Shown: one piece after another, positions 644-64,000 of the stretch
Layout of the letters: every line of letters begins with the position of its first letter
Numbering within the stretch: the first letter of the stretch is position 1
Origin: Antedon bifida
Lineage: Eukaryota; Echinodermata; Crinoidea; Comatulida; Antedonidae
Length of the DNA: 64,000 nt
Assembly (NCBI GenBank): GCA_963402885.1
Contig: OY727096.1
Span: 30,361,820 to 30,425,819 of the forward strand
Reading direction: 5' to 3'
Translations under genes and position numbers: made by a program
Notes under the pieces: generated by a model
Database searches by the model: none
Told to the model about the DNA's origin: nothing
Seen by the model: the letters and a program-made list of their open reading frames with translations, nothing else

Positions 644-970
644 ATTGTGTCAAAAGTATCTATCTAAACACAAGTGATGTTATCAACATAACTTCCCCAA
701 ATTACCCTGAAAACTACGATAACTACCACAACTGTGAATGGATCTTAGAAAGTCCGCAGAATACAGGAATTCTACTCACTATATATGACCTAGATCTAGA
801 CTATTCTGACTCTTTAAATATTACTTATGTTGACGTCTTCGGCAATACAGTGACTGAATGGAATAGTAACTACCAGATTCTAGCAAAAACAAACTTGAAC
901 ATAACTTTTCAAAGTGATTCTTACGGCGTTAACAGAGGATTTGCTCTAGGGCTGAAGGTTATTGACATAG
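644..970 (+). CDS. Gene 1 exon: CUB domain (first in window)
   Basis: Acceptor CCAATAG, donor GTAGGC, 327 nt, phase 1-1. Reads SPNYPENYDNYHNCEW, then a Phe/Tyr-Asp-Leu strand and RGFALGLKVIDIG, the same type-A CUB found in gene 3. It has the first cysteine pair (DC... and HNCEW) but neither cysteine of the usual second disulfide: the site that is CCD in gene 3 is YSD here. Confidence 0.9.
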
Positions 971-3900
971 GTAGGCCTATAGTTACTTAATTATTATTAT
1001 TTTTTTAAATATTATCTTTATTTTGTTATTATTATTTATTTATTGTTATCATAATTTAAAAAAAGTAATGTCTTTTTCTTTCCAACACATAATGAATGCT
1101 TTTTTTTCAATTTTGTACAATATTATCTTCTTTGTAGAATGTTCTGGATATCTGTGCTTGACTGGTAATCGTATTGGTGTATGTCTAGATATGTCTTTAG
1201 TTTGTGACGGATTCGATGATTGTGGTGATTGGTCTGATGAATTTTTAGGTTGTACAAAGCGTGAGTTTAAGTAATGGATTAAAACAAAGGATCAAAAGAA
1301 ATATATTTGATATAATTCTCAAGAATATTGCTCTCTCAAGATTTTGGGAGTAAAAAGATGTTAATACTTATTTTAAATTAGTTCTGTTACCAGCAGTAGA
1401 GTTGCCTACAAACAAAGCCTGGGCCTGAGCGCGTCTAAATTATTAACCACAACGTGAACTATTTACATAGTACGTTGTTTTTCTCCTATCATAATTCCCA
1501 TAGAACGTACACTTAAGACAAGGAATGTCCTGGTTTAATGTTATTTAATTATTATGGTTTGTTTTTACAACCCGTCAAACATTGCAAGACAAAAGTACAG
1601 AGTTGGAGTTCATAATAAACTCCAAATTGCACTTGACGTACTTTGTCCAATTATATAAATTGATTGTTACTTGACCGATTGAAATATCATAAGTTTCCAG
1701 ACATAGTTGTGCAACCGCAACCATTCCTCTTTCAAAATTGTACTTTATACAAATAGTTAAATGCTCATTTGTGAAATTAATAAGTCATTATTCTGTAATC
1801 GTTTATGATGAAATATTTTTTTTAATAAATACCAACAAGCACCAATGCGTGCTAGCTTGGCACGTACGCACGCATTTTAAGCTAGTCCTAATTTTGCAAG
1901 TGTTAATCCCACAACGAAATCAAAGTATAATATTATGTTTAGCTGAATTATTCGGTAAATGTTTAATAGAGTTCAAAACCAATTGACAGCAGCGTAGATC
2001 TTTCCTTCACCTTCAATACGGCTTTTAACGTAATGAAACAAAATTTCTCGGTGTTATCCTAGACTCAAAGTTATCCTGGCAGTCCCATCGTAATAATATT
2101 TCAAATACAATTTCTAGAAACATTGGAATAATGAATAAACTAAAGCACTATCTCCCACAGCACATTCTTTTATCTTTATATAACACCTTAGTTTTACCCT
2201 ATATTAATTATTGTAACATATCTTGGGCTACCACAATTGATAAATTTCTTTACTTGTGTCCCTGGACGAGTCCTGAAGCAACCAATATTGACAACATCTT
2301 TAAACTACAAAAACGTGCTATCAGGATTTGTGCAGGGTCAACCAGAATAACTCACACCAAAAACTTATTTAATAAATTTAATATACTTAATGTATTTGAT
2401 TTACACAAATTACAAACTTATATTTGTATGTATCGTCTAAAAAATCACTCCTTACCAAATCATATTATTTCTTTATTTCCTAAACAACAACCTGATATTC
2501 ACAATTACAATACAAGATTTGCTAAAACAAATATTTTATCTGAAAAGCATACATTTCATTTAAGAAGAAAATCGATTTTTTATAATGGTCCAAAACTATG
2601 GAATTTATTAAGTATTTCATTAAAATATCTTTCTTGTTTCCTTTCTTCTTCGCTTAATTGAATTGAATACCTTATCATATTGTTCATCTTGTAATTGTAC
2701 TATTGTCTTAGCAATTTAAGCATTTGTATTTTTTATTGTAAGCCGGACTGCTATTGTATACCTTCATTTTTTTTAATTTTAACCCTTTTTAACTGGTGGT
2801 CACGACTTAAAGTTGTCCGCAACTTATTTTGACCTCCATCCGCACATTTTTGATGTTTTTTTTGTTTATTGTAATTTTCTTATTTGTATTTGTAATTTTT
2901 ATCTTTTATTTTAAAATGTGTGGAGAAACTAATAAAACAAACAACCAAAACGTAAACTTTGTCAGGCGTATCTTTCACTGATAAGTTACAAAGACTACCA
3001 TTCATCAATCATTATCATTTTAGGTGCATAATGTCCAGATTATTATTATTCTTTTGTCAGATAATAATGTGACTGAAACATTTCTCTGTGGTAATGAAAC
3101 CCAAATGATAACATCGCCTGGATATCCAAATCATTATGGAAACAACCAGTACATTGAATGGACATTTACTACTCACACTGGAAGCTTCCTCTCAGTAGAA
3201 TTCTACGAATTTCAACTTGAGAACAACTATGATAATGTGACTATTTACAGTGACGGAGAAATGATTGGTAGATTCAGTGATTCCAACAATACTCCACAAA
3301 AAACCATATCTAACAATAACACAATAACGGTTGTGTTCAATACAGATAGTAGTGTGGTGTATAGAGGATTTCAGGCTAAAGTGTCTGTGTACCCTGAAGC
3401 CCCAGGTAGGTACATACACTCATATTATATAGTTAGACCTAGCACATGTTTCCCTTACAATGTGACTCATTATCGGTAAGTTATTATAATAATGACATTG
3501 GTTTTTGTAATTATGCTATCGCAGATTGCGTTTGCATAATCAGGTGCAAAGGATTGGAACTTATAATAGAAATGAAGCATTTCGTACGTGCCAGTGTTTG
3601 TGGTGTGGTACGAGACTACTACTACTCTTAAAGATGTATTATCCCCTGAAAAACATTTTTTTTGTTAAATATTCAATGTTAATGTCACATAATAGTTATC
3701 CATCTTGACCAAAAATATGATCTAAACAAATATTTACCTGAAAAAAAAAATGTAATTTTTTAAAGCAAAAAATGGTCGAATTGGCTGCCAGCCAATAGAT
3801 TTTTGGTTGAATTTTACAATTTATTATGTTATAAGTGAAAACATTATTTTTGTTCTTTTTTTTCTCTGGAAGTGATTAACTTTATTAAAACTAAAAAATA

Positions 3901-6900
3901 ACCTATTCAAAATCTGATTTAATTAATCTTCATTTTTTATGTTTTCGGGGGACAATACATTTTTAACTCTACCCAACATCTAATATCTTTTCAAATCACA
4001 GATGGTTTATGTATTGATTTTAACGATGGATATTCTGGCTGGACTCATTATCATAGTTCCCACATATGGATGAGATCATCAGAAAGATATAACGTTGACG
4101 ATTTGGGAAAACGTTACTCAATATCAGGAAAACGTTACTCAATATCAGGTAAACATATTAATAATTTGTGTTAAATAGTGTGATTATTATACGATTGAAA
4201 ATAAGTACATAGACAAAAAAAAACAGAAATATATCACTAAAATTCTTATATAGGTGTTATGTATGTTTCTTTTAGATGATTACTACATTTATATTGCAAA
4301 CAACTATGGCCAAAGTGGATACAAATATAGCTACCTTAAGAGTCCATATCTACCAGACAAGTGGAATGAAGCATGTCTTATGTTTTATTACTACATGAGT
4401 GGAAGTTCATACCAATACCTTTATGTAAAGCAATACTCATATTTTGGATCATCTTCTGTGTTCATCAAACATGATGGTGATCATAACAGCCGACGGTGGA
4501 AGTTTGCACATGTAACTATCGATATGAGCAATAACAATAGTTCTTACTTGCTAATATACGGTAGAGCAGGCTATTATGATGCAGAGATAGTTGCTGTCGA
4601 CAATATTTATATTAGCGAGGGCGCATGCTCTGATTATCTAGGTATGATTTATATTTATTTAGATTCATGGAATAAAATGTGTGAAACGTTAAAATGAGAA
4701 TTAAAACACAATATTATAGGCTATTATGTACCACGCTTATTTCATATTTCAGGCATGTCCATTTGCTGTCCCTTCCGTGCCTTTTAAAATTATTTTTGTA
4801 TTATGGGTGGGGTATATTTTGGGTATTTTCATATATTGAGTATATGTACAGTATACATTTATTTTAAAAAGACATTTAAAAAGTTAACTTGTGAGCGAAG
4901 TGGGTCATTGACTCTTACATAGCAATAGCAAGATAGGGTTAAATTAATACGTTATTTATGTTAAACAATATTCTTTTGACTTACAATTGCTTTCTTTTCT
5001 ACAATTGAATTTAATCAAATTGGCCTGCCAGCTAATGCATTTTTGGCTAAATTTAACCGTTTATTTTGTCTTTTTATAGGTTAAAACATTATTTGTTTAG
5101 TGTTTAAGCCTACCTTAATTAAAACTACAAAATAACCTATTCAAAGTGTGATTTTATTAGTATTTATTTTATTTTGGGAAAGAATACAACCTGACGATGT
5201 TTGGGATTAAACTTAACTTTTAATTAATTTATATTCGATATAGATAATAATAGAAACAAACTAACTGTGGTTTATATACATTGTCTATTTTTAAAAAAAG
5301 TACCGGTAATTATTGTAATATTAATTATTATTTAAATTACAGATAAATCATCGGAATTACCAACAGAGGCTAGTATTCAGTCGACGGTAGGCAGTAAGTA
5401 CAACACAATGATAAAAAAAAATAATAATATTTTCAATGTTTTTTAACGTTGTAATTTTAGCACTATATTTATTTTATAGATTTGCTATACATATAATTAT
5501 AAAAGACAAAATATGAATATTTACTTAAAACCGAATAAGCACCAACACAGTAATAATAATTGGTTCTGTACATGCAAATGAAAAAAAAATATTCTTTTGC
5601 TCATTTTGTAATTCATTGACAACTTTCCTTGTTCCAGAAACATCATCGATAACTGAAGCGACAGAATCAACATCCAAAGATATTACATATTCATTGAAAA
5701 GCGAGAGAACCACATACCCAAGCAACGTTTTTTCAACCACCGTCAGTGATGCTTCACCGATGTCAACATCGAGTATTACTAAAATGACACATACTGACGT
5801 AACACCACTGTTATCGGATAAGAATACTGACTCAACATCGTTTGTACCTTCAGCGATAGACTTCACAACACACAAAAGCAGTACCGGACATTTGGTGAAT
5901 ATATTTACTGATACTTCTGAGAAGGCAACTTCCAACTCATTCGTTGATTCCTCAAAATATTTCGAGATCACAACGGAACCAAAAATACCGAGTAGCGATG
6001 TTGGAAATGGTGAGAAAACTACAATTCCAGAAACAGGTCAATCAACTGCTTTGGTTGATGACAATCATGATGAAAATGGTGTGACATTCGAGAAAACTAC
6101 AATACCAGAAACAAATATAAATTCTGAGGCTACAACAACTATGTCGATTGACAGATACTCGCCGAATAATGATGACGGTACAATTGAGCAAACTTTCATT
6201 CCTGAAACTGAAAGAACAACTCTAGGAACAAGAGCCAAGCCGGATGAGATAGTTTCGTGGTCGAGTAGCTATGATGGAAATATTGAAACAACTGAGCGAA
6301 CTATAATTCCAGAAACAGAAAGAACAACTCTGGAAACAAGAGCCAAGCCGGATGACATAGTCTCGTGGTCGAGTAGCTATGATGGACATTTTGAAACAAC
6401 TCAGCGAACCTCAATTCTAGAAACAGAAAGAACATCTCAGGACACAACATCTGATAACTTAGGCTCGAGTAGTTTTTATGTAGAGAGTGAAGTAACTCAA
6501 CAAACTAGTATTCCAGAAACAGAAAGAACAAAACAAGCCGCAACAGCTACTGTAGATGACATGGTCTCAATAACAAATATTGATGATAGAAACGATGAAA
6601 CAACTGAGCGAACTTCAATTCCAGAAACAGAAAGAACATCTCAGGACACAACATCTGATAACTTAGGCTCGAGTAGTTTTAATGTAGAGAGTAAAGTAAC
6701 ACAACAAACTACTATTCCAGAAACAGAAAGAACAAGACAAGCCGCAACAGCTACTTTAGCTAACATGGCCTCAATAACAAATATTAATGATGGTAAAGAT
6801 GGAACAACTGAGCAAACTTTAATTCCAGAAAAAGAAAGAACATCTCAGGACACAACATCTAATAACATAGGCACGAGTAGTGTTTATGTAGAGAGTAAAG

Positions 6901-9900
6901 TAACACAACAAACTACTATTCCAGAAACAGAAAGAACAAGACAAGCCGCAACAGCTACTTTAGCTAACATGGCCTCAATAACAAATATTAATGATGGTAA
7001 AGATGGAACAACTGAGCAAACTTTAATTCCAGAAAAAGAAAGAACAACTCTGGGAACAAGAGCCGCGTCGAATGATATAGTCTCGTGGTCGAATAGCTAT
7101 GATGGAAATGTTGAAACAACTGAGCGAACTTCAATTCTAGAAAGAGAAAGAACATCTCAGGACACAACATCTAGTGTGAATAACATAGGCTCGAGTAGTG
7201 GCGGGAGGAGCGAAGTAACTGAGAAAACTAAAATTCCAGAAACAGAAAGAACAAAACAAGCGGTAACAGCTACTTTAGATGGCATGGCGTCAAATATTGA
7301 TAATAGAAACGATGAAACAACTGAGCAAATCTCAATTCTAGAAAGAGAAAGAACCCTTGAAACAAAAGCTATGCTAGATGACATATCCTCAAGTTCAAGT
7401 AGTAATTATGGAAATATATATACTGGTCAAACTTCAGTTATTCCAGAAACATATACATCGACACAACAGATTGTTTCTGAAGAATCAAATATAGTTGACC
7501 TTATAGTAACCACAGAGACAGCTACTAAAACAGAGAATGATTCCACAACACATTTTTCCAGTAAGCACATGTTATTGAAATTTAAATATGTTTAAATTAG
7601 TCATATCAAGGAAGAGCGTACGTCTACCATAAAACCACAAAAGTGAATTATTGTTTTAACAGAAAAACATCAAAACGTTCATATCTTACAGGTGATAATT
7701 ACGAAGAAGCCGTTTTATTGATATTAAAAGGCCGACAGGTATGAGTACACTAACAAATATTGCAGGGTTTTAAACCATTATTAGTCAACGTCCATAATTT
7801 ATAGGCCTATTCACTTTTTAAAATAAATATAATGTCAACTAAAAAAAAGACGATACAAATGTAAATGTTTTATAATATAACGGTTAATAATTTACATATC
7901 GTTACAGTGGATTACCGTCAAAGAAGTATTTCGCTTCAGTGCTTCAAAAGCCATGAACACATACTGCTATTCAAGGTCTGCTCTCTGTTGTGCATGGACA
8001 GAATGCAATGAGTGAGTTTTGCTAATTTATATCGCGGTTATAAAGTGGAAATAATTACGATTATTCGTTGTCAATAATATTCCGTCAACTGAATGAACAT
8101 TTTAAGTAAATATAGCTTACCATCGCATTGATCTAAACATTTTCTCATACAGCATCACATATGTTTTGTATCAGTTGGAATAATAAGTGTTAGGTTAAGG
8201 CACAAAATACATCTATGACACTGGACATGTACATCGTAGAATTATTATTTGCAGTGTACAATGAATAAAATTAGGATACAGTACACATTTTATCATTATT
8301 GTTGCGCAATAAATATTTATTTTAAATATGCATGACTCACGCAACATCTTTTTTTTTTGTTGCATCACACATTCACAACATCCTAATATGTCTAATAATT
8401 TAACTCAACTTTTTGTTTAAACAGAAAGGATACCTTAAATGGAAATATAACAACATCCAAGAATATAAGATTGATCGAAGAAATTGAGAATATTGGCAAT
8501 ACCCAAATAAACATCATTCTGTCGGTCAAATACAACGACTATTTTAAGACATGTTATATACAACATTCTGAAAGACGTAAGAGGAGTAAAGAAAAAAGTA
8601 AAGATCATTCGCAGCTGAGACATATCATTCGCAGAAATACTAATGGTAAAATAATGGTTATACATTATTCTGAAGATATTAAATTATTATTACTATTCTA
8701 GTAAATAGTCGACAGTGCTAACAATTAAACTGTTAACATCAGATAATATGAAATAATAGAAAAATCGACCTACTGAGATGACATTACCATTGATTATTGA
8801 TATAAATTTTGCGGTACACCGCGTGTATTAGTTCTGAAAAGAACTGTTGAGTTTCTCGACGTTTCGATCAATATGCTTTGATCGTCCTCAGGAGTGAGAA
8901 TGCAGAAAGTCCAGGAAACTTGGAATATAAGTGGAAAGGGGTGGGACTGGTGTGAAAGCCAAAAACAATAGCAAGTTCACACAGTGGGAGGGATTGACTC
9001 TAGCTGTAGAAGAGCATTGTTTTTTGACAATATATTACCATTAATTACTTTTGTTTCAGAATACATTCCCTCTGAAGTTGTGAAATCTTCATTTGAAGAA
9101 CAAAAAGAAAATATCGAAACTGCTATTCAGATGGAAATCATAGAGGTTTCTCTTTATTCTAAGAGAGATGACTCTAGTGATGATAACAAATCATACACTA
9201 TATTCATCATTATTGGAGTTAGTTGCTTGGCAGTTTTATTTGTTCTTTGTGTTTTTCGAGTATACAAACAGTACGTATAATGTGAATGTTTAATTACCAT
9301 GTTTAAAATGTAATGTTTAATTGTAAACAAAATGTTGTTTACTTTACTACCTGTGCTGGGTATCTCTTCCCTTCTATTACAAAGTACAAGAGTATTTGTT
9401 TTCGTAAGCCAGTAAACATCTGTTTCGCCTGGCAATAACATTTTAAGGGCGTCGTCCAAAATATGTCTGCGGTAAATTTGAACGAAGTGTAGGCCTAGAC
9501 ACGTGTTGATTAGTTGTCTAGGACTTTAAAACTGCTATTTAAATTACTTTCATTAAATTATCTATGAAATTTATAATTATTCTTGATTCAATGCAAAATA
9601 GATCAAACATTATTCATTTTTTATCCTACTAATTTGACTCAAAGGTTTAACAAATGTGTGACGTATCCGTTTTCGTTATCGTATTCGTAGCGTTAGGAAA
9701 CCTCCCTTATATATATATTTACAATAAAAATGAGTGAGTGGTTGGAATATTGGTCAATGTGGCATGTATGTCAAAATATACTAGGATTTATAATTTTAAA
9801 AAAAAGTTTTTAGAATTTATTAGAATCTATGTTATTGTGAAGAAATAACTAACATTCTCATGTGTTTTTTAAAAATTAAAACAAGGCATCATCAAACTGG

Positions 9901-10246
9901 CAAAACAAAACATTACAAGAAAAATGTCGTTTCTACAAGTGTATCAGCTGGTGTTAGTGGAGTAAAATCTCACGAACTTTCATCAGGTAGGTCTATTGTA
10001 ACAGTAATTAGTTCTCATTGGTGTATCAAAATGTAATGCAAATAAATAACACCATAACACCATTGGAAATAATGACATCAACATACTGTAAGAATTAGAC
10101 GGAGCTGTTGTTAGGTATCTGATTACTGCTTTATCACATTTATAATATTTGTTTTTTCTTCTACACTCTACACAGGCTCATTGAATCGTTTGTTCATCGC
10201 CCCCAGCTTGAAAGAAACACCGGCTTCATTGAATGCATGGGAATAA
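644..10246 (+). CDS. Gene 1: CUB-LDLa-CUB-MAM-mucin-like type I membrane protein (5' partial, multi-exon)
   Basis: Exons read as 644-970, 1138-1260, 3061-3405, 4002-4148, 4276-4641, 5343-5393, 5638-7560, 7692-7738, 7908-8011, 8425-8645, 9060-9270, 9886-9986 and 10176-10246 (stop TAA). All junctions are GT-AG and the sum keeps one frame for 1344 residues. Order: CUB, LDL-receptor class A, CUB, MAM, 17-residue linker, 641-residue Ser/Thr stalk, unrecognised juxtamembrane module, one TM helix, tail of about 58 residues ending LNAWE. The signal peptide must lie before the window. Domain content is that of a cell-surface adhesion or recognition receptor; ligand and signalling are unknown. No kinase, TIR, death or GPCR domain follows the TM. 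Introns up to the mucin exon are phase 1; C-terminal introns are mixed phase (0, 2, 1, 2, 1), so the C-terminal block behaves as one ancestral unit. Its 3' half is duplicated in gene 2. Confidence 0.85.
1138..1260 (+). CDS. Gene 1 exon: LDL-receptor class A domain
   Basis: Acceptor CTTTGTAG, donor GTGAGT, 123 nt, phase 1-1. Six cysteines in LDLa spacing, with the calcium-binding acidic end FDDCGDWSDEF and a final Cys. A complete, apparently functional LDLa repeat, expected to fold around one calcium ion. Confidence 0.92.
1261..3060 (+). other. Gene 1 intron carrying a LINE fragment
   Basis: 1.8-kb intron. 1261-2030 is AT-rich with no exon I can support; 2039-2950 is a 5'-truncated non-LTR retrotransposon listed separately. 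Confidence 0.7.
2039..2950 (+). mobile_element. 5'-truncated non-LTR retrotransposon (CR1/Jockey-like), 3' end
   Basis: From about 2039 the frame reads KFLGVILDSKLSW and continues without a stop to 2661 through IMNKLKHYLP, LVLPYINYC and LQKRAIRI. This is the region just after the RT catalytic core in CR1/Jockey-group elements. The 3' UTR runs to about 2950 and ends in AATAAAAC-like short repeats. The RT core with its FADD box is missing, so the copy is dead. It lies in the sense direction in an intron. Confidence 0.85.
3061..3405 (+). CDS. Gene 1 exon: second CUB domain, cysteine-poor
   Basis: Acceptor TTTTGTCAG, donor GTAGGT, 345 nt, phase 1-1. CUB landmarks: ITSPGYPNHYGNN, the strand after EW, FYEFQLENNYDNVTIYSDG, and VVYRGFQAKVSVYP. 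Only one cysteine (FLCGNE) remains; the usual second Cys is Ile (QYIEW) and the second pair is absent. It is more divergent than the other CUBs here. An upstream AG at 3023 could give an alternative acceptor but fits the phase less well. Confidence 0.85.
3632..3962. mobile_element. TTAA-flanked MITE, same family as 37731-38077
   Basis: Flanked by TTAA at 3628-3631 and 3963-3966. Left end AGATGTATTATCCCC, right end GGGGGACAATACATTT, matching the terminal inverted repeats of the better-preserved copy at 37731-38077. No coding capacity. Lies in the intron between the second CUB and MAM exons. Confidence 0.8.
4002..4148 (+). CDS. Gene 1 exon: MAM domain, N-terminal part
   Basis: Acceptor AAATCACAG, donor GTAAAC, 147 nt, phase 1-1. 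Reads LCIDFNDGYSGWTHYHSS, the opening Cys-x-Asp-Phe and Gly-Trp of MAM. The last 42 coding bases are two perfect copies of a 21-base unit (4106-4126, 4127-4147), giving GKRYSIS twice and an insertion of 7 residues. Confidence 0.85.
4276..4641 (+). CDS. Gene 1 exon: MAM domain, C-terminal part
   Basis: Acceptor TTTCTTTTAG, donor GTATGA, 366 nt, phase 1-1. MAM pattern: YYIYIANNYGQSG, then SPYLPDKWNEACLMFYYYMSG, RWKFAHVTIDM, and VAVDNIYISEGAC. Cysteines at EAC and GAC and the strand order fit MAM, a known adhesion and homophilic-contact module. Confidence 0.92.
4642..5637 (+). other. Gene 1 introns around the small linker exon
   Basis: AT-rich. 4960-5180 resembles a decayed TTAA-MITE (Asn-Trp style internal words shared with 3780-3960) without recognisable ends. 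The only exon is 5343-5393. Confidence 0.55.
5343..5393 (+). CDS. Gene 1 exon: 17-residue linker
   Basis: Acceptor AAATTACAG, donor GTAAGT, 51 nt, phase 1-1. Reads KSSELPTEASIQSTVG. Same length, phase and style as the ten 51-nt linker exons of gene 3 (for example TELQTGTTNSTMV), so probably homologous. Confidence 0.8.
5638..7560 (+). CDS. Gene 1 exon: Ser/Thr-rich mucin-like stalk
   Basis: Acceptor CCTTGTTCCAG, donor GTAAGC, 1923 nt with no stop, phase 1-1, 641 residues. From about 6000 it is built of degenerate repeats of about 35-40 residues around (T)TIPETERTT, then [17 protein letters not shown]. Thr, Ser and Glu dominate and cysteine is absent, as expected for a heavily O-glycosylated, extended membrane stalk. 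Neighbouring repeats are very similar in DNA (6640-6830 against 6840-7030), showing recent internal expansion. Confidence 0.9.
7692..7738 (+). CDS. Gene 1 exon: start of juxtamembrane module
   Basis: Acceptor ATCTTACAG, donor GTATGA, 47 nt, in phase 1, out phase 0. Reads [16 protein letters not shown]. Same length and phases in genes 2 and 3. Confidence 0.85.
7908..8011 (+). CDS. Gene 1 exon: cysteine-containing part of juxtamembrane module
   Basis: Acceptor CGTTACAG, donor GTGAGT, 104 nt, phase 0-2. Reads [20 protein letters not shown], then ALCCAWTEC. The YC and CC cysteines and the FRF and NTYC/NTFC motifs are kept in gene 3. The fold is not recognised; a SEA-like fold before a TM helix is possible. 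Confidence 0.85.
8425..8645 (+). CDS. Gene 1 exon: juxtamembrane module, basic segment
   Basis: Acceptor GTTTAAACAG, donor GTAAAA (8646), 221 nt, phase 2-1. Reads [36 protein letters not shown], then a basic stretch with RRKRS that could be a furin-type cleavage site. The donor is chosen because reading on reaches a stop at 8700 and because the next exon fits only this phase. Confidence 0.8.
8811..8905. repeat. Single arm of a dispersed palindromic repeat
   Basis: TTTTGCGGTACACCGCG through CGACGTTTCGATCAATATGC to CAGGAGTGAGAATG. Same as one arm of the palindrome at 35587-35773; a second copy lies at 24676-24770 in the duplicated gene 2 segment. Intronic. Confidence 0.75.
9060..9270 (+). CDS. 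Gene 1 exon: membrane-proximal helix and transmembrane segment
   Basis: Acceptor TTTGTTTCAG, donor GTACGT, 211 nt, phase 1-2. Reads [19 protein letters not shown], then acidic [11 protein letters not shown], then the hydrophobic span [20 protein letters not shown] followed by FRVYK. Cys-containing TM helix with a basic stop-transfer end: type I topology. Confidence 0.9.
9886..9986 (+). CDS. Gene 1 exon: cytoplasmic tail, part 1
   Basis: Acceptor AAAACAAG, donor GTAGGT, 101 nt, phase 2-1. Reads [15 protein letters not shown], then [18 protein letters not shown]. Basic then Ser-rich. I see no ITAM, ITIM, NPxY or PDZ-ligand motif. Confidence 0.8.
10176..10246 (+). CDS. Gene 1 last exon: cytoplasmic tail end and stop
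   Basis: Acceptor CTCTACACAG. Reads [23 protein letters not shown], stop TAA at 10244-10246. Gene 2 has the same end with four extra residues ([13 protein letters not shown]), an in-frame indel. Confidence 0.85.
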
Positions 10247-12914
10247 GTTTCTGTTAATATTAAAAACACAACTTCTAAATTTGGTGGAGGGATTATGCAT
10301 ACTTATTATATACTGTACTTTACCATTACGACATGAATAACACGTCAATTTTGACATAGTTGCCGAATTATTTTTTTTTTTACAGTTTATGTGTATACAA
10401 TGACCTGTAGGCCTACAAATTTAAGTTGTATGCATATTAATTAGACATTTTATTTATATTTGTATTAGTTTAAAAACTTGACTACAGTTTCAATTTGAAG
10501 TTTTTGGAGGGTTTATACAACGTGTAATGATATGCTGTTATTCATTAATACATAGGGCTTAATAAGTTAAAACACGTCAAACTTTAACATGTAATAGTAT
10601 AATTATTAAGAATCAACTTAAACTGTTTCGGTAATAGTATTTTTACCGAATATTCCAATGTTTCGTTGCCTGCATTTTAATTTAATAGTTTACAGTAAAA
10701 CAATACTCAGAAGTTTACGCGTGTAACTAAAATTAGTTTCTTGGTGTACATTATTGTATTTTTGATTTTTCGTTTGGTGGAGGGTTTAAATATTTAAAAG
10801 TAACTATAATTGCATGTGAACAACAATATTGTTGTTTTCAAACTTGAAAGTTTAAACTGATGGAGGGTTGTATCATATTGTTACTTTAATGTATAGTATT
10901 AATAAATATAAAACTTTTCAGAAAATTGTCACGTCACTATTTGAGGGTCGATACAACATGCTACATATACTGGAGAGTGATGGTGTAATGATAATATCGG
11001 ACTAGCATGTGATAGGAGGCATGGGTTCGAGGTTATCTGTACCATACTGATTGCATCATTAGGCAAGATGCTTTACTCTCATTGTCTTACCTGAGGGTCC
11101 CAAATGATCAGCAAGTGCTGGATGGGTCACCCTCATTAAATAGGGTAAAAAAAACCGCTTGTTAACACAATATTAAATCAATTCAACTTCTAAATAATCT
11201 AAATTTAACGCTCCAAATCCTCTAAAAATCGGCCGTAAATATTAAGGTAAAAAAAGGCCCGATCGTCGTTCGTACGTGTGGTCTCGAACTGTTAATATTC
11301 CACTCAAAAAAAAAAGAAGCTGATTTGGCCCAGTTAAAAATCGAATAAGCAAGACTATCTAGAGTAGTAGGCCCGAATTGATACTTACCAGTTAGTTATA
11401 AAGCCTAAATAAATCATCCTATAAATGTATATTATATTACAAATGGAAGTGAATTGAAGTACACTAATCAACGATCGACCACGTGGCTGTTCTTTTACTT
11501 GAAAATTGGGCCTAACCTTTTGACTCGCCTTTCTAAACGGTAATGGTGCCGTTTGCACGGTTTCAGCCTTTATATTTTTGAATGACGACCTTTGGAAATT
11601 CCACATTTGATAGCCTATTGACCCAGAGGTATTTTTTAAAAATATTTAATAATTCATAATTCCGTAGGCCTAAATATCTAGTTTACGAACTTCTCATATA
11701 GATTATGACCATCTCCGTAGCAAAATGGATGTTGGATGTAAAATTCAGACGGATCGAAAGTTTCACGGCGGCGTGTATTAGAGGACAAACTTTTTGTGTT
11801 TTCCTTTTATATATATATATAGAAAGATATATTTGAATAGTCATTTTAAACTCGGAATCCCCCTTTGAAAGAAAGTGACCGTTGCTAGGAGACGCCAACG
11901 CACAATATACTTTCATATTATTATTGGAAACAATGGTACAGAACTGAAACACGTTTAGTCGTAGAGGCGGCTACTACAAGTTACAATTTGTACGTATACG
12001 TATTTGTAACGTATAATATTGAGTATTTTACCTACCCTCTGATTAATAATGGAAGTTTTATAGTTCTATTCTGGAACTAGAAAACATAGATGTTGATATC
12101 TGAGTGTTATAGATATAGAAACCTGAGATATATCTCATATCTGAGTTTTCAAGATCTGCGTTTTCAGACACCGTCAAGGCTAAATTTTAGTACAAACTGT
12201 ATTATGAATAAATAAATTATGTAGGCTAAGTTCATTTTCGCATTAATAGAGGTCTATCAAATATGAAAGGCGACCAAACACACGATACGAAATTGTTGAA
12301 TGGATTGATCACACAATACATTCACAATAATAGCTTCTTCAATCTATAAATTTAGTATCGTTTTGAAATTAAAAATAGTTATTTTTTTTGTGTTTTTTTT
12401 CTTTTTTTTGGTAAAACAAATCTACAATAAACATCGGTAGCATTTAAGTGACTGTCAATGTTAAATCATTGGACATAGGGCCTACTGTAATAATCCATGG
12501 AGTAAGTAATAATGCATCATAGGCATACATAAAATCATCGCGTTGGTAAACTATTATGTAATGATTTGGCCCGACTTGAATAATAGGTGCACATCAATAT
12601 AAATCGAACGATTGTAGAATACAAGACATTGACAAAAAAAGTAACATAAAATAAGGATAAGGATTCACCCCTGATGAAGCTACCTTGATAGCTTAAATTC
12701 TTTTTTCTTTCGGACAGAAATCCGAAATTCACATAATCGAATGTCATTCTTATTCGGAGTCTGAGGCTCGTAAATCGCACAAATGTAATTCCCAACGGCC
12801 ACACACGGCACCACCTTTGACATCGGAATTTCTAACAGTTCTAATAACATAACTAAACCAGGAACTAAACACTTTGTAATTGTTAAAGTGTTTCAAATGT
12901 AACAACACACAGCA
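10247..12914 (+). other. 3' UTR of gene 1 and intergenic DNA
   Basis: 10247 to about 10920 is the probable 3' UTR, with AATAAA at 10901-10906 kept in the duplicate at 26777-26782. A motif like GGTGGAGGGTTTA recurs near 10281, 10506, 10776 and 10862. The duplicated block runs to about 11955 and includes a promoter-like motif (11879-11893). 11956-12914 holds nothing I can identify beyond a Ser/Thr-free AT-rich spacer and short hairpin DNA near 12100-12175 related to 18393-18456. Confidence 0.6.
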
Positions 12915-28416: not shown

Positions 28417-28546
28417 GCCAACACACAATATACTTTCATATTATTATTGGAAACAATGGTACAGAACTGAAACACGTTAATATGTTACGTTACAGATTTA
28501 TAATGAAATAGCATGCAGTTGGTTGTTGTTGTTGGTTGGTCGCACA

Positions 28547-43800: not shown

Positions 43801-44950
43801 AGAAACTTAATAACTGTGGCATTGGTGGAAACACTAATGCATGGATTACAGATTTTCTTACAAATAGACGCCAAAGGGTTATTTACAGAGGAGAAAAGTC
43901 AGAGTGGGTAAATGTTACTTCAGGGGTACCACAAGGGTCAGTTTTGGGCCCTCTTTTATTTTTGATTTATGTAAGTGATATTGTAAATAATATTTCTTCT
44001 TCACTTTTTCAATTTGCTGATGATCACACATTATCACGTCCTATTTATAACAATAATGATTGTAAATTGCTTCAAAAGGATTTAGATTTAATTGCTAAAT
44101 GGGCAAATGTAAACAAACTTCCCTTAAATCCGGTCAAATGCGCCGTAATGCATGTTACAAGATGTAAAGAGATAGTTAACTGGGATTATACCATAGAATC
44201 AGACAATATTCCTAAAGTTACAGAATTCAAATTTCTAGGTGTTTATGTAAATAGTTCGTTGTCTTGTCATACACAAGTTAATTATATATGTTGTAAAGCA
44301 AGCAGATTGCTTGGTTTCATTTCAAAATGTAGTAAAAATATGTCCTGGTTAGCTATGTTGAACTTATACAAAGCTCTATTACTTCCAGTGGTTACCTACT
44401 GTTGTTCAATGTGGGCACCATTTGAGAAATCATATATTAATAGAATAGAAAGTATACAAAGGAAAGCAACAAGGATAATAATGTTTAGAAAGGAAGGTTC
44501 CTGGGACACATCTTATTTTCATAGGTTGAAAGTGCTTGAATTATTATCTATTGATGACTTGTTTAAATTACATAGACTTTCATTAGGATTTAAGGTGTTG
44601 AAAGGTTACTGTCCCCATTCTTTCAATGAGTATATTAAAACTAGTGAAAGATGTCCGGGTAGGCTTTTACGTTGGAATTCGAAAGGCAATACTTTTCACA
44701 ATTCTGTATTTGTTTCCTTTCCTAGACTATGGGAGCAAATACCAAATGACATAAAAGATTCACAAACAATTTCAATATTTAAGGCGGCTCTAACAAAACA
44801 CTATATTTCATGTTATGTATAATTTATTTGTATTTTTCTTGTATATGGTTTTATCTTTAACTGATTGTATTGTATGGAGTGAGTGCAGAATCTGTTTGGG
44901 CTTTAGCCTATTCTCATTCCTGGTTATTTTTACATTGATGACCGAATAAA

Positions 44951-44982
<32 letters not shown>

Positions 44983-59900: not shown

Positions 59901-62900
59901 AGTGTAACAATTAAAGTTATTGTTTTTTTGTAGACGAAAATAGGGGAACAATCAAAGAGAATATATTATTGAAAATCAGATATAATGGTAATACGATAAT
60001 CTAAATAAGTTAAAGAGGAAAGTAAACATATTGTGATTACATTGCTAGAAATGCGACTGAATATTTTAGGAATATACTATAACAATTTAATCAGTCGACT
60101 GTCAATTCATTTCACAACATATAGATGCACCGAGAAGAAGAAAACCAGGTATAACTAGCCTAATACTACTACCATTAATAAGCAATATCCAAATAAACTT
60201 ACAACTATATATTATTTTGTGTCGTTCAATTATTATTTAATCAGTAAAAAATCTTGTCTTCTTACCTCACCAGATTGTGTTGAAAACATTTATCTAAACA
60301 GTAATGATGTTATCAACATAACTTCTCCAAATTACCCCGATAACTACGATAACAACCACAACTGTGAATGGATTGTGGAAAGTCCGCAAAATACTGGAAT
60401 TCTACTCACGTTTTATGACTTAGAGCTGGAAAACTGTTGCGACTTTTTGATTATAACTTATGTTGACGTCAATGGCGATACATTACTTATAGAGTGGACT
60501 AGTAACAACTCTATTCTGGTTACAACACACGTGAATATAACTTTTCAAACTGATTTTTCAGTTGTTAACAGAGGATTTGCTCTGGGACTGAATGTTATTG
60601 ACATAGGTATGTTAACTCCTCCAATGAGGAGGTTGTATTTAATGTTTTCAAGGTAAATAAAAAAAAAGACAATAATTATTGTATTTAAAACAAATTATAG
60701 GTATATATTTTTTATTTAAAGTCTTTACAAGTTGTAGTTTTTTTTTTTATAGAAAACTGTATGTCTAATTATTCCATTATATTACACATCAAGCAATTTA
60801 ATATTTCAGAAGCCGAAACAAAAACTTGGGAAATAACATCTGTGCTAAATGAGATAGTCTCGTGGTCAAGAAGTTATGATGCAAAAAGTGTAACAACCAA
60901 TCAAATTACAATGCTAGAAACAGAAATAACAACTCAGAAAGCAACCACAATTTTTGATGACATATTATTGAGCAGTTCGGATGACAATTTTGATGTAATT
61001 GGGAAAACTACAACTCCAGAAACAGAAAGAATAACGCTGGAAACAACATATATGTCAGATGATCCAACATTGTCATCGAGTAGTAATGATATAATACATG
61101 TAACAACTGAGCAAAGTTCAATTCAAGAAACAGAAATATCAACTTTATTGGATGACATTGCCTCATGGCCGAGTAATGACGACGAGAAATATAAAACAAC
61201 TACAATTCCAGAAACAGAAGGAACAACTGAAGTCTCAACTAACAAGTTAGATAAAACAATCGAGCAAACTATAATACCAAAAACAGAAACAACTTTGGAA
61301 ACAACATACATATCTGATGACCTAACGTCGTGGTCGAGTAGTTATGATATAACCTATTTAACAACCGAGAAAACTACAATTCCAGAAACAGAATTAAGAT
61401 CTCATGAAACAACAGTCATGCTTGATGAAATAGACTTGAGTAGCGTTGATGGAAAAACAGAAAGTATTACAAATCTAGATACAACAGGAACTAAACAAGC
61501 TGCTACAACAGCCATATTGGATGAAACAGCTTCAATTTCAGAAACAAACGACATAACTATAGCCACAACGGTTATGTTGAATGACATATACTCGGGTAGT
61601 GATGACGGAATATATACAACAACTGGGCTGCCTACAACTCCAGAAAAAGAAACAACAACTTTGTTGGATGACATAGTCTCGCAGTCGAATAGTGTTGATA
61701 TACAAAGTATAACGACCGACCAAATACTAGAAACAGTAAGACAAAGTCAGGAACCAACCACTGTTTCGGATGACATGGCATCGAGCAGTTCTTATGAACA
61801 AAATGAAGAAACTGTAACTCAAGAGACAACAACCATGATGGATGAGATAGACACAAGTAGCGTTGATGAAATAAGTGAAGGAACTCGACAAACTACAATT
61901 TCAGGAACAAATGAAACTATAAGTATAGCTACAACGAATATGATGGATGACATATACTCGAGAAGTGATGAAGGAAATGATAAAATAACTGGGATAGTTA
62001 CAATTCCAGAAACAGAAAGATCAACAATTTTGGACGACATAGCCTCGCCCTCGAGTACTAATGATCTACCAAGTGTAACGATTAAGCAAATTATAATACT
62101 AGAAACAGAAAGGACAACTCTGGAAGCAACTACTGTTTTAGATGAAATATCATCGAGCAGTTCTTATGAAAACATTGAGCAAACTACAATAATTTCAGAA
62201 AAAGAAAGAACAACCAAAACGTCAACGGCTAACTTGGATGGAACTACAGAGCAAACTATAATACCAAAATCAGAAAAAACAACTTCGGAAACAACATTAA
62301 CGTCGGATGACCTCACATCGTTGTCGAGTAGTTATGATATAAACTATTTAACAACTGAGCGAACTACAATTCCAGAAACAGAAGAAACAACTATAGCTAC
62401 AACGGCTACAATTCTTGAAAGAGCGAGAACAAGTCAAGCTACAACAGTTTTTCAGGATGAAACAGATGTGATGTCGAGTAGTTATGATTGGAATAGTCTA
62501 ACAAATGAGCAAACAATAACAACAGAACGGTCAACTCGGGAAACAACAAATACGAGGTCGAGTATTTATACTAATAAAGGTCTAACAACTGAAACATTTG
62601 GTGACGACTTGGTGACCACAACAAGTCAACGTGATGATGGATTTACATTAGAACATACTGTAAATGGTCGGACTACGTTTAAATCAACACAGCAGACAGA
62701 CATTAGTTCCGAAGAGTCAAATACCAATGAACCTAGTGCAGCCACGAAAAAAGCTACTAAAACAGAGCTGGAGTCAACCACTTTTGCTAGTAAGCTAACA
62801 ATTTTTATTAAAATAATTATAAATGGGTCCATTATTTAAAGCAAAACAATGAAAATGCTGTGGATATAAGTAGCTGGATCTCGAAACAACAACGAGCATT

Positions 62901-64000
62901 AGGAATTAAAATATTATTCTTTTCCATTCATATCTTACAGGTGATAATTACATAGAAGCCGTTTCATTGGTTTTGAATGGTCAGCAGGTATGAAAAAAAC
63001 ATACAATTAGATATCGTAGATTCCTTTTAGCAGCTACACAAAGTAACTTAGCTAGATATCTTATCAATTTATTAGTTACATTCTTGACCTACTGATTATA
63101 TATCTAACGATTCTATACAGTAAATATAATTACAAAATACAGTGAACAATTTTTATTATTAAAATGTATTTGCAATATTATAGGAACAGTGGACCACCGC
63201 CAAAGAAATATTTCGCTTCATTACTTCGAATGCCGTAAATACCTTCTGTTATTTAAATGCTGCCCTTTGCTGTGTATGGACAGAATCTTATGCGTGAGTT
63301 ATTTACATCCTATCGATCGTGGGTAAATAAAATATAAATGCATATTGGGCAAGTGTCTCTAATAATAATACCACATAAACTTGATATATTAATACATCAC
63401 TATTACAAGACAAAACAGTGAATCAGATAAGTTAAATAATTCATTAAAAATAGATATATAAAAATTAATAATGAATGCGAACATAAAAATCTAAATCTAA
63501 TTATTAAATTTATATTTCGTTTGTTCTCTAATGAATATTATTCCATATTGTCTTCATCGTTAAAAATGTCTTTAATATGAAAAGCATTTTAAATTAATTA
63601 TGACACCTCATAATGCTTTAAAAAATAAGTAGTAAGTAAAATATAAGATCACTTATTGTTATTTTATTATAATAATTATTATGTACGGACAAGAATATAC
63701 ACAGGTGTGTTATATAATTAAGAACATAAAAACATGTTATGCCACAAAAACGAAAAAAGATCGCACGATGGGTGGAATGACGTAATTATGAATCTTCATC
63801 TGATTTTAATATTAGGTAAGAAAATGTATTGTATAGGTATGAGAAGAGAAAAGTTACTTATAACATTCATCTAAAAATAGAACCATTATTTAACATATAA
63901 CTTACGTTTTTTTCTAATTAGAGAGAATATATTAATTGGAAATATTACAACGCAAGAGAATATAAAACTGATTGAGGATACCAATAATAACCAGATTAAC
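31839..64000 (+). CDS. Gene 3: giant CUB/somatomedin B array, mucin-like membrane protein (3' partial)
   Basis: Signal-peptide exon 31839-31899, linker 35115-35174, then five blocks with SMB domains (35995-49537), then fourteen further CUB exons alternating B and A (50073-60606), Ser/Thr stalk 60810-62789 and juxtamembrane exons 62941-62987, 63190-63293 and 63922 onward. Inside the window 20 CUB and 5 SMB domains code for about 3477 residues without a frame break. All ectodomain introns are phase 1, so each exon or block can be gained or lost in frame. CUB modules bind proteins and glycans, often via calcium; SMB modules bind proteins such as integrin or protease-inhibitor partners in known families. 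By analogy with genes 1 and 2 the missing end should encode a TM helix and a short tail. Assembly collapse or expansion errors are possible in so repetitive a locus. Confidence 0.85.
31900..35114 (+). other. Gene 3 intron 1, 3.2 kb
   Basis: AT-rich. 33531-33585 carries the widespread GCGCTATATAAGAA-type 3' end of a retroposon followed by TTATTATAATTATT, and 33621-33660 a similar end in reverse. No exon supported. Confidence 0.55.
35115..35174 (+). CDS. Gene 3 exon 2: linker
   Basis: Acceptor GTATTATTAG, donor GTAAGT, 60 nt, phase 1-1. Reads GYTDANIEFQTDNNIPTIVH. Same style as the 51-nt linker exons. Confidence 0.75.
35587..35773. repeat. Large palindrome (foldback MITE)
   Basis: Left arm AAAGTTTGCGGTATACTACG to CGATCAATATGCTTTGATC; right arm GATCAAAGCATATTGATCG to TACCGCAAACTTTA. 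Arms about 75 bp, nearly perfect, around a short TCAGATTCTCACTCCTGA centre. Single arms occur at 8811 and 24676. Confidence 0.88.
35995..36327 (+). CDS. Gene 3 CUB 1 (type A)
   Basis: 333 nt, phase 1-1, acceptor ACTCAACAG, donor GTATGC. ESYCDFL has a single Cys where later copies have CC. Starts DCVGHIYLNKNDV. Confidence 0.92.
36533..38314 (+). CDS. Gene 3 unit 1 linker-SMB-linkers (exons 36533-36583, 36743-36847, 37663-37710, 38264-38314)
   Basis: 51, 105, 48 and 51 nt, all phase 1. The 105-nt exon is a somatomedin B domain with eight cysteines: GSCVGKCGRWDKNCYC, then ACEELNDCCPDYLLLC. Linkers read ATTELQTGTTNSTMV-like, NISLGTEIVTEWVTIT and DATSDFQRERSNSTVV. The intron before the last linker carries the TTAA MITE, and the intron after SMB carries a SINE fragment. 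Confidence 0.88.
36972..37121 (-). mobile_element. SINE fragment (tRNA-derived), unit 1
   Basis: AAACCGCCCGGTGACATAGT tail, ATTTGAAACGATGAG, then minus-strand tRNA-like block with box B AGTTCGAATCT and anticodon loop ATTCCAC. Truncated inside the D arm. Copy in unit 2 at 39944-40091; only the tail survives in units 3-5 (near 42480, 46140, 49069). Confidence 0.78.
37731..38077. mobile_element. TTAA MITE, best-preserved copy, with paralogous empty site
   Basis: 347 bp; ends AGATGTATTGTCCCCC and GGGGGACAATACATCT are perfect inverted repeats; flanked by TTAA at 37727-37730 and 38078-38081. Units 2-5 have the uninterrupted GTCTTTAACGTCAT or GTCTTTAAGGTCAT instead (for example near 40693). TTAA target and precise footprint point to piggyBac-type mobilisation. 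Confidence 0.9.
38399..38745. repeat. Intron block conserved in units 1, 2, 3 and 5
   Basis: About 345 bp, GC-richer than its surroundings (TTTCGCGAGTTTTTACG, CGACAGCCGACCAACCG). Copies at 41020-41360, 43258-43560 and 49630-49945. Its frames give short open reading frames but differ by indels between copies, so it is not coding. Confidence 0.7.
38851..39198 (+). CDS. Gene 3 CUB 2 (type B)
   Basis: 348 nt, phase 1-1, acceptor GATTCAACAG, donor GTTAGT. HNCKW, ERCCDFLTIT, ETEIFTGRSINTT, RGFALGLEVIELLG. Confidence 0.92.
39485..40933 (+). CDS. Gene 3 unit 2 linker-SMB-linkers (39485-39535, 39714-39818, 40633-40680, 40883-40933)
   Basis: 51, 105, 48 and 51 nt, phase 1. SMB reads GSCLGKCGRWDKNCYCDNVC, then NDCCPDYLMLC, eight Cys. 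First SMB codon is GGG rather than GGT. No TTAA MITE in this unit. Confidence 0.88.
41467..41814 (+). CDS. Gene 3 CUB 3 (type B)
   Basis: 348 nt, phase 1-1. Distinct residues: TTIRAKENVNIRFHTDYS and RGFSLG. Almost identical to CUB 4. Confidence 0.92.
42001..43047 (+). CDS. Gene 3 unit 3 linker-SMB-linkers (42001-42051, 42241-42345, 42748-42795, 42997-43047)
   Basis: 51, 105, 48 and 51 nt, phase 1. SMB with NACEELTDCCPDYLMLC. SINE tRNA part and about 0.4 kb of intron are deleted relative to units 1 and 2. Confidence 0.88.
43091..43211. mobile_element. Short insertion related to 31225-31280
   Basis: Absent from units 2 and 5 at the same place (TTTCTTTAAAAATGTATTAT). Contains GACAGACAGACCGACCAACC and the hairpin AGTCGCGTCCACGCGACT. 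Confidence 0.75.
43561..44980 (+). mobile_element. 5'-truncated non-LTR retrotransposon with intact RT-half ORF
   Basis: Inserted at TCTCTATATA/TTTCTAAACG in the conserved intron block; units 2 and 5 have the empty site. Open from the junction to TAA at 44820-44822. RT landmarks: LSENQFGFRQMYST, IIFLDFSSAFDKVSH, TSGVPQGSVLGPLLFLIY, FADDHTL (catalytic F-A-D-D in place of YADD), LGVYVNSSLS. C-terminal LYKALLLPVVTYCCSMW resembles the fragment at 2131. Ends in a TTA microsatellite (44951-44980). CR1/Jockey-like. The endonuclease is missing, so it is not autonomous; the open frame indicates youth. Confidence 0.9.
45125..45472 (+). CDS. Gene 3 CUB 4 (type B)
   Basis: 348 nt, phase 1-1. Protein as CUB 3 except RGFALG and first residue Gly (acceptor CAACAG/GTTGT). 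Its upstream intron matches the later dimers, not unit 3. Confidence 0.92.
45659..46705 (+). CDS. Gene 3 unit 4 linker-SMB-linkers (45659-45709, 45899-46003, 46406-46453, 46655-46705)
   Basis: 51, 105, 48 and 51 nt, phase 1. Exons and introns nearly identical to unit 3: a very recent duplication or conversion. Confidence 0.88.
46706..47297 (+). other. Gene 3 intron, nothing coding
   Basis: Contains about 190 bp (46925-47120) absent from other units, with GAGTCGCCTTGAAGCTAAGG and a GGCGCTTCTGTGTAATATAC end typical of retroposon 3' ends. Confidence 0.5.
47298..47645 (+). CDS. Gene 3 CUB 5 (A/B hybrid)
   Basis: 348 nt, phase 1-1. First half follows type A (DCVENIYLTNNDVINITS, NYDNNHNCEWILESP), second half type B (DLERCCDFLTIT, TGRSINTTIRAKENV, GLEVIELLG). 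Switch near 47440. Acceptor is the type A intron end, donor the type B GTTAGT. Confidence 0.92.
48052..48384 (+). CDS. Gene 3 CUB 6 (type A)
   Basis: 333 nt, phase 1-1. NRNDFINITS, HKCEW, ENCCDLLIIT, TEWTSNN. Confidence 0.92.
48596..49537 (+). CDS. Gene 3 unit 5 linker-SMB-linkers (48596-48646, 48825-48929, 49268-49315, 49487-49537)
   Basis: 51, 105, 48 and 51 nt, phase 1. SMB with NVCEELNDCCPDYLMLC, the last SMB of the array. The 48-nt linker starts NTSLGTEI instead of NISLGTEI. Confidence 0.88.
50073..50420 (+). CDS. Gene 3 CUB 7 (type B)
   Basis: 348 nt. TTILAKENLNIRFYTDFS, ends EVIKLLG. Confidence 0.92.
50814..51146 (+). CDS. Gene 3 CUB 8 (type A)
   Basis: 333 nt. NSNDAINITS, ESPPNTG, EICCDFLIIT. 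Protein identical to CUB 10. Confidence 0.92.
51411..51758 (+). CDS. Gene 3 CUB 9 (type B)
   Basis: 348 nt. LNYGDNHNCEW, TAILLTF, NIIFHTDFS. Confidence 0.92.
52153..52485 (+). CDS. Gene 3 CUB 10 (type A)
   Basis: 333 nt. Same protein as CUB 8; two silent changes only in the regions compared. Confidence 0.92.
52848..53195 (+). CDS. Gene 3 CUB 11 (type B)
   Basis: 348 nt. NHGDNHNCEW, TAILLTF, VTEIFTGRS, NIRFHTDFS. Confidence 0.92.
53397..54338. mobile_element. Insertion of about 0.94 kb: foldback element plus tRNA-SINE-like block
   Basis: Other dimers read straight from AGGAATATACTATAATAATA to TATAACCAGTCGAG; here the two are split. 53397-53580 is a near-complete inverted repeat (ACAGATATTGCCT... 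...AGGCGATATCTGT) with TTATA on both sides. 54028-54106 has tRNA box A TGGCGCAGCGG and box B GAGTTCAAATCC. About 50 bp around GAAAATTAC-CAGTCAATATC is duplicated (54142-54190, 54212-54260). Confidence 0.8.
54533..54865 (+). CDS. Gene 3 CUB 12 (type A)
   Basis: 333 nt. NSNDVINITS, EICCDFLIIT, FQTDLSVV. Confidence 0.92.
55227..55574 (+). CDS. Gene 3 CUB 13 (type B)
   Basis: 348 nt. TAILLTF, NIRFYTDFS, ends EVIKILG. Confidence 0.92.
55968..56300 (+). CDS. Gene 3 CUB 14 (type A)
   Basis: 333 nt. NSNDAINITS, ESCCDFLIIT, EWNSSNS. Confidence 0.92.
56663..57010 (+). CDS. Gene 3 CUB 15 (type B)
   Basis: 348 nt. TGILITF, NIRFHTDFS, EVIELLG. Confidence 0.92.
57405..57737 (+). CDS. Gene 3 CUB 16 (type A)
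   Basis: 333 nt. NYPNNYDNNHNCEW, ESCCDF, DTFLTEWNSNNSVLV. Confidence 0.92.
58098..58445 (+). CDS. Gene 3 CUB 17 (type B)
   Basis: 348 nt. TGILLTF, TILAKANLNIRFYTDFS. Confidence 0.92.
58830..59162 (+). CDS. Gene 3 CUB 18 (type A)
   Basis: 333 nt. NSNDAINITS, ENCCDF, FQTDLSVV. Confidence 0.92.
59527..59874 (+). CDS. Gene 3 CUB 19 (type B)
   Basis: 348 nt. KENLNIRFYTDFSIVHRG, ends LKVIKLLG. Confidence 0.92.
60274..60606 (+). CDS. Gene 3 CUB 20 (type A)
   Basis: 333 nt. ENCCDF, VNGDTLLIEWTSNN, RGFALGLNVIDIG. Last CUB, joined by a 203-bp intron to the stalk exon. Confidence 0.92.
60810..62789 (+). CDS. Gene 3 exon: Ser/Thr-rich mucin-like stalk
   Basis: Acceptor AATATTTCAG, donor GTAAGC, 1980 nt open, 660 residues, phase 1-1. 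Repeats of the same kind as gene 1 (TTIPETE-TT, LDDIxSxSSSYD) but more diverged from each other, suggesting an older, less homogenised array. No cysteine. The frame is open back to 60761, so an earlier acceptor is not excluded. Confidence 0.9.
62941..62987 (+). CDS. Gene 3 exon: start of juxtamembrane module
   Basis: Acceptor ATCTTACAG, donor GTATGA, 47 nt, phase 1-0. GDNYIEAVSLVLNGQQ, clearly homologous to genes 1 and 2. Confidence 0.85.
63190..63293 (+). CDS. Gene 3 exon: cysteine part of juxtamembrane module
   Basis: Acceptor GAACAG, donor GTGAGT, 104 nt, phase 0-2. WTTAKEIFRFITSNAVNTFC, then ALCCVWTES. FRF, NTFC and CC are kept; the last Cys of genes 1 and 2 (TEC) is Ser. A second in-frame acceptor, ATTATAG at 63183, would add Glu-Gln. 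Confidence 0.82.
63294..63921 (+). other. Gene 3 intron, nothing identified
   Basis: 628 bp of AT-rich sequence. Confidence 0.6.
63922..64000 (+). CDS. Gene 3 exon: juxtamembrane module continues beyond window
   Basis: Acceptor TTCTAATTAG, phase 2. Reads ENILIGNITTQENIKLIEDT, then NNNQIN, matching [20 protein letters not shown] of gene 1 (8425 onward). Cut by the window end. Confidence 0.85.

Follow-up and report, generated by a model that had tools for sequence, protein, structure and literature searches.

The locus described here raises the question of whether genes with very different outer parts belong to a single family held together by one membrane-proximal end, and which role such a family might undertake. 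The window, i.e., the whole analyzed stretch of 64,000 nucleotides from the Antedon bifida assembly (C9:30361820-30425819), had originally been predicted to harbor three receptor genes with a common C-terminus. The shared module was indeed found in genes 1, 2, and 3 of the window, but its copies extend beyond them, amounting to six full and two partial copies within 165 kb of one chromosome (C9:30.266-30.432 Mb). Full copies belong to genes A, C, and D, located upstream of the window, and to the three window genes, and the partial ones to genes B and G4. The ectodomains preceding these copies comprise D8C/VWD/EGF (three genes), D8C only, CUB/LDLa/MAM, EMI/EGF, CUB/Somatomedin-B (SMB), and SRCR kinds, and the arrays and modules follow one another in series, all on the same strand. 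Regarding the three ectodomain types first proposed for the window, Pfam reported CUB, LDLa, MAM, EGF_CA, and Somatomedin_B, whereas EMI was seen by eye and not reported by Pfam. To delineate these genes, 250 kb around the window were tiled and exons were predicted with a custom gene finder trained on the open reading frames of the region. All gene models are thus predictions from sequence, in which internal ectodomain exons agree between repeats and first exons are untrustworthy; the predicted first exons of the cluster genes yielded no confident signal-peptide exon. The early claim that every ectodomain intron is in phase 1 stood for 56 of 58 predicted exon starts in gene 1 and 37 of 39 in gene 3, the non-phase-1 ectodomain exons of both genes being doubtful first exons of the gene finder. 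A search of the open-access literature returned no description of this cluster. The mitochondrial contig of the assembly (15,844 bases) encodes a COI that, judged against conserved residues, reads best with AAA=Asn, AGR=Ser, and ATA=Ile, and 11 contigs are longer than 19 Mb; both features suggest an echinoderm, probably a crinoid, and an initial guess of a tunicate was dropped. The COI piece has 28% GC, and a crinoid mitochondrial genome is reported to contain 72.73% AT (PMC8820819).

The most pronounced feature of the family is its C-terminal module, which had been read as four exons and turned out to consist of six (b to g), two conserved cytoplasmic exons (f and g) lying beyond the transmembrane (TM) exon. 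In gene 1, on the forward strand, it comprises exon b (7692-7738, 47 nt), exon c (7908-8011, 104 nt), exon d (8425-8645, 221 nt, with the furin-like site RRKR), exon e (9060-9270), which carries the TM segment and ends at the donor GTACGT, and the newly found exons f (9886-9986, cytoplasmic tail) and g (10176-10246, tail end and stop codon). The apparent C-terminus KQYV* (Tyr-Val-stop) was rejected, as it corresponds to this splice donor and is followed by exons f and g. Exons b, c, d, and e were located in six genes by tblastn with the first-read exons, and exons f and g by comparing the 4 kb behind each module copy, with matching phases in the six genes. The occurrence of exons b, c, and d with conserved phases in all three window genes was confirmed. 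The exon lengths given for them fared unequally: exon c has 104 nt in all six full copies, and exon b has 47 nt only in genes 1-3, measuring 53, 56, and 41 nt in the three genes upstream of the window.

When the six spliced modules were aligned, 58 of 271 columns were invariant at an overall identity between genes of only 50-59% (genes 1 and 2, with 93%, being the exception), which excludes a chance resemblance. Both the module and its conservation can be read directly from this alignment. Four cysteines are conserved, and the juxtamembrane domain, split over four exons, exhibits a basic RxKR or RRRR furin-like site in five of the six copies, gene 2 being the one that lacks it. A hydrophobic segment and then a tail are encoded by exons e-g in the six genes; the TM stretch was judged by eye, and from it we infer the topology. 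The tail ends in NAW followed by D, E, N, or Q in five of the six copies, and in NEVVP in gene A. With the gene 1/gene 2 pair set aside, the module dN/dS ranged from 0.25 to 0.53 in the remaining 14 pairs.

We then asked where else this module occurs. The genome search proposed along with the original prediction was run with the C-terminal module over 315.6 Mb, and the copies were confined to one locus of this genome among the matches listed. Exon e gave nine listed matches, eight of them at this locus, and the whole module of gene A placed 24 of its 25 listed matches at C9:30.266-30.432 Mb, the sole off-locus match being a weak one on C15 (E 0.067); the search scored the best candidates, and distant module copies might escape it. 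Pfam offered no convincing family for the module, with none at cut-off for the first member scanned. TMEM132_C was the sole Pfam family matching more than one of the six members (four members, along the TM stretch, with E 0.015 at best), and the best single value was that of PCRF (E 0.00061, one member). No SEA entry appeared in the Pfam lists of the six members, which extended to E 10, and a profile search against PDB produced just two matches to the TM stretch (E 2 and 2.2). As far as Pfam and PDB show, the anchor and its tail would comprise an unnamed domain family.

Gene 1 is considerably longer than first described, since its CUB/LDLa/MAM chain begins near C9:30327253, about 35 kb upstream of the window, and no module copy intervenes. 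Its predicted exons include 12 CUB and six LDLa; the CUB, LDLa, and MAM domains of the upstream units were identified by Pfam, and the last MAM-like exons in the window derive from exon models. The last ectodomain exons in the window (644-4641, forward strand) are, by these models, CUB (644-970), LDLa (1138-1260), CUB (3061-3405), and MAM-like (4002-4148 and 4276-4641), followed by a Ser/Thr-rich stalk exon at 5638-7560 on the same strand with internal repeats of ~100-204 nt. A LINE-like reverse transcriptase open reading frame (ORF) of 210 residues lies at 2029-2661.

Gene 3, also on the forward strand, presents an ectodomain at 35995-60606 whose exons comprise 20 CUB and a number of small linkers, in addition to five Somatomedin-B ORFs, of which the gene finder took two; both CUB and Somatomedin-B (E 2.8e-7) were reported by Pfam. 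Its Ser/Thr-rich stalk exon (60753-62789) and module (62941-64000, with b at 62941-62987, c at 63190-63293, and d from 63922 to past the window end) follow on that strand, and exons e-g, encoding the TM segment and tail, lie outside the window at C9:30426549-30427689. The first exon given by the gene finder (35675-35753) was rejected, as it falls inside a dispersed repeat with an open frame. This repeat occurs before gene 3 (35627-35785, forward strand) and within gene 1 and gene 2 introns (8794-8976 and 24660-24842, reverse strand). Within gene 3, the segments 41320-43089 and 44978-46747 are 99.4% identical, one copy being otherwise interrupted by a LINE-like reverse transcriptase ORF of 492 residues at 43210-44978. 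Genes 1 and 3 both contain recurrent small linker exons (type ATTELQTE...), and similar exons are present in G4 and before gene D.

Outside the window, full b-g modules were found in genes A (from C9:30266426 on), C (C9:30297893), and D (C9:30320450). Gene B (C9:30278308) carries exon e, lacks b-d, and has exon f out of frame, and G4 (C9:30431605) carries half of exon e, without b-d and without a recognizable g. In gene D, VWD exceeded the Pfam cut-off (E 5.7e-11) and EGF-like stretches were detected by subthreshold models only; genes A and C were assigned the same D8C/VWD/EGF ectodomain by sequence similarity to D. D8C_UMOD remained below the Pfam cut-off in B and C (24.1 and 20.7 vs. 27 bits) and was not reported for D, and G4 carries an SRCR domain by Pfam (E 3.1e-29). 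Before gene D, LDLR class-B (YWTD) exons were detected at 30306034-30308318 (E 1.4e-26), which may be part of gene D or constitute a separate gene; within C9:30306034-30309162, these propeller exons are followed by a linker exon of the family type.

The least secure of the window genes is gene 2, whose reading as a single receptor gene is doubtful, making it the weakest of the three examples. Its EMI-like exon and EGF/cbEGF exons (15827-22075, forward strand), the latter including calcium-binding EGFs by Pfam, are colinear with arrays at C10:22.20-22.25 Mb, and its stalk (22785-23461, forward strand) is homologous to that of gene 1 from mid-exon, with a tentative 5' splice junction. On the same strand, the module spans 23593-26113 (b 23593-23639, c 23785-23888, d 24306-24511, e 24931-25141, f 25756-25850, and g 26031-26113). 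Gene 2 is a copy of gene 1 from mid-stalk to 1.5 kb beyond the gene: a segmental duplication of half the stalk, the module, and the 3' flank is directly evident on the forward strand (7099-11724 vs. 23004-27562, 91.8% identical). The homology breaks in successive steps, with similarity unique to C10 extending to near 22150, a dispersed repeat to 22377, and similarity to gene 1 from 22785. The stalk acceptor chosen by the gene finder is in phase 2 and the preceding EGF exons end in phase 1, so that no in-frame junction was seen, although all six module exons are open. A "decayed EGF exon" at 22629-22727 was considered as the link and rejected, being in phase 0 with a stop just upstream. Two further repeats lie nearby, a tandemly duplicated EGF exon with TGC-rich intron repeats (17003-18128, 95.7% identical) and a 364-nt tandem repeat in two copies (27575-28342, 99.75% identical).

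Gene 2 may therefore represent either a newly formed chimera or a dead chimera. There is an even chance that it is the latter, with a duplicate of the EMI/EGF array of C10 set beside a copy of the 3' half of gene 1, and not an expressed receptor. The homology breaks and the phase mismatch at the acceptor favor a dead chimera, as does the loss of the furin-like site through an exon d that is 15 nt shorter. In addition, identity to gene 1 is 93-100% in exons and 86-98% in introns; as the exons are conserved no better than the introns, constraint since the duplication is not evident. Conversely, an open frame persists throughout the six module exons and what is left of the stalk, and the module dN/dS against gene 1 is 0.41 (18.5 and 11.5 changes), both of which argue against a dead chimera.

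Three of the ectodomain types have relatives without the module elsewhere in the genome, and these illuminate the history of the cluster. CUBs of the gene 3 type were found outside the locus with 56-68% identity on C11 (six), C16 (ten), and at C9:29.70 Mb (five). On C11, CUB is followed by an LDLa exon of the kind seen at the locus and then by a trypsin domain (E 2.8e-71); in C11:21612001-21619000, more CUB and LDLa exons lie behind this domain. The EMI/EGF exons of gene 2 have counterparts in three arrays at C10:22.20-22.25 Mb, of which the nearest is 76-93% identical exon by exon, and sushi domains follow the EMI/EGF array there. The VWD/EGF portion of genes A, C, and D produced 10 matches at C12:8.95-8.98 Mb, and the D8C exons produced 16 outside the locus (C7, C8, C9:29.68-29.83, and C12) and 11 within. 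At C9:29.68-29.83 Mb, D8C-like and gene-3-type CUB exons occur together on the other strand, with no listed module match. The genome searches listed no module match at any of the loci bearing ectodomain relatives, those on C10 and C11 having been read in part, which indicates that the cassettes are common to several loci and the module is not. As these relatives sit on other C-termini, the outer parts have been exchanged during evolution.

The original notion of swapped modules in front of a constant anchor is thereby supported in that one conserved anchor follows varied ectodomains, but the sequence of the anchor is not constant, its identity of 50-59% being lower than that of some ectodomain exons of A, C, and D (83-93%). 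Between C and D, the ectodomain dS varied from 0.00 to 1.38 over 10 exons, and between A and C from 0.12 to 0.82 over nine exons (the first D8C exon of gene A, whose model is cut short, being omitted), in comparison with 0.81-1.14 for the whole modules of these pairs. This spread indicates that ectodomain exons and module differ in history. Gene conversion has presumably homogenized the ectodomain exons, and part of the dS mosaic could reflect the noise inherent in short exons.

Selection was examined next. In the CUB repeats, mean dN/dS was 0.20 (nine copies), 0.25 (11 copies), and 0.33 (six copies), with dN exceeding dS in none of 36, one of 55, and none of 15 pairs, respectively; CUB copies of unequal length were omitted, and no value was obtained for the gene 1 copies of 345-354 nt. 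For MAM, dN exceeded dS in one of 15 pairs of the 333-nt exon and in 14 of 21 pairs of copies of the 126-nt first exon (within C9:30327253-30365967). Repeats inside one gene may be homogenized, which makes dN/dS a weak test; even so, these values speak against strong diversifying selection as the rule, the 126-nt MAM exon being a small exception. With dN/dS below 1 in both CUB and module, an arms race is not favored, and a role in allorecognition or immunity finds no support in these values.

Together, these observations are probably best explained by a family of type I membrane glycoproteins confined to this locus, adhesive or ligand-binding and cut by furin, in which one six-exon anchor follows varied ectodomains. 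Each complete gene would end with a folded membrane-proximal domain bearing a furin-like site, one TM helix, and a tail of ~55-75 residues, preceded by one ectodomain array and a stalk that is rich in Ser/Thr and presumably O-glycosylated. The family would have expanded by tandem and segmental duplication, arrays of phase-1 exons would have come to precede the module copies, and gene conversion would have kept homogenizing the ectodomain exons of similar genes as the modules diverged. During export, furin would cut the juxtamembrane domain, the two chains remaining associated; the mucin-like stalk would project an adhesive or ligand-binding ectodomain away from the surface, this ectodomain could be shed, and the conserved tail may couple the membrane part to trafficking, the cytoskeleton, or signaling. 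Such an architecture would be consistent with a family acting in surface adhesion or in the innate binding of ligands.

A more ordinary alternative, in which a tandem family of mucin-like or matrix-anchoring transmembrane glycoproteins coats the surface or forms an adhesive layer and serves no recognition function, is quite possible, if less than probable. The domain shuffling would then be no more than the background usual in animals. The long Ser/Thr stalks, the near-identical CUB repeat arrays of genes 1 and 3, the conservation of these repeats in place of diversification, and the presence of the same cassettes on other proteins all point that way, whereas the conserved tail exons suggest more than a passive anchor and many ectodomain kinds share one anchor at one locus. 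The first reading of the window envisaged an allorecognition or pathogen-recognition locus with ectodomain sets varying by individual. Clustered genes with recent duplications (such as the pair at 41320-43089 and 44978-46747), mosaic ectodomain exons, an SRCR domain in one partial member, and the excess of dN in the 126-nt MAM exon are in keeping with it; nevertheless, the low dN/dS of CUB repeats (0.20-0.33), the single pair with dN above dS in the 333-nt MAM exon, and a cluster in which neither Ig nor other domains known from allorecognition receptors were seen make such a locus, and an allorecognition role in particular, unlikely.

It is highly improbable that ectodomain clusters are spliced to shared downstream constant exons in the manner of protocadherins. 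Arrays and modules do lie in series on one strand, and onward splicing would be possible where the gene 2 stalk lacks a clear phase-1 acceptor and gene B lacks b-d, but a full module lies immediately behind each of six arrays, and sharing is thus not needed. Returning to the locus-confined glycoprotein family, a bolder extension of it seems rather unlikely: the furin-cut anchor, not described before, would act with its own tail as a recombination hub that repeatedly captured VWDE-like, CUB/LDLa/MAM, CUB/SMB, EMI/EGF, and SRCR cassettes by segmental duplication, with exons still converting and individuals differing in the recognition sets placed on one signaling output. Domain shuffling in animals has mostly been reconstructed from old events, and a single genome holding a recent chimera (gene 2) and older exchanges on the same anchor could make the steps of ectodomain capture readable. 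Should haplotypes differ in ectodomain content, the cluster would become a candidate locus for recognition, a kind of system about which little is known in this phylum; otherwise, it would represent a clear case of nonimmune cassette shuffling.

Among known systems, the Hydractinia Alr complex and Botryllus FuHC/fester resemble the cluster in being clustered membrane proteins with varied ectodomains; theirs are Ig-like or of other kinds and highly polymorphic. Clustered protocadherins likewise place a variable ectodomain before a constant C-terminus, their constant exons being single and shared by splicing, whereas each gene here has its own diverged module, in six full sets. SRCR together with CUB, EGF, and LDLa is described for echinoderm genes in PMC10855680; compared with sea urchin-type SRCR expansions, G4 is alike in having one SRCR domain, and the cluster is unlike them in that SRCR is present in this single partial member only. 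The module also recalls SEA-domain proteins (Notch, GPR126, and MUC1), which undergo cleavage by furin or autocleavage and combine a membrane-proximal domain bearing a basic RxKR site with a stalk and a TM segment, and a beta-alpha-beta-beta-alpha-beta order can be discerned by eye, with no profile support. According to PMC6954182, GPR126 joins CUB to a furin-cut SEA domain, and in GPR126 and Notch2 the furin site lies within SEA and the halves stay associated. SEA cleavage in these proteins is placed between strands 2 and 3, whereas the basic site of the module, by eye, follows the third strand, and the module has its four conserved cysteines. Finally, genes A, C, and D may resemble VWDE, uromodulin, and GP2 in their D8C-like exons, VWD, and putative EGF, and differ from them in that the D8C matches of the cluster are below cut-off and a Ser/Thr stalk, module, and TM segment follow. 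Human VWDE is not known to carry this anchor. In PMC8930769, the D10C domain of VWDE is aligned with UMOD and GP2, and the D8C/D10C of uromodulin and GP2 are presented as decoys for bacterial FimH, which makes a defense role of genes A-D conceivable by analogy.
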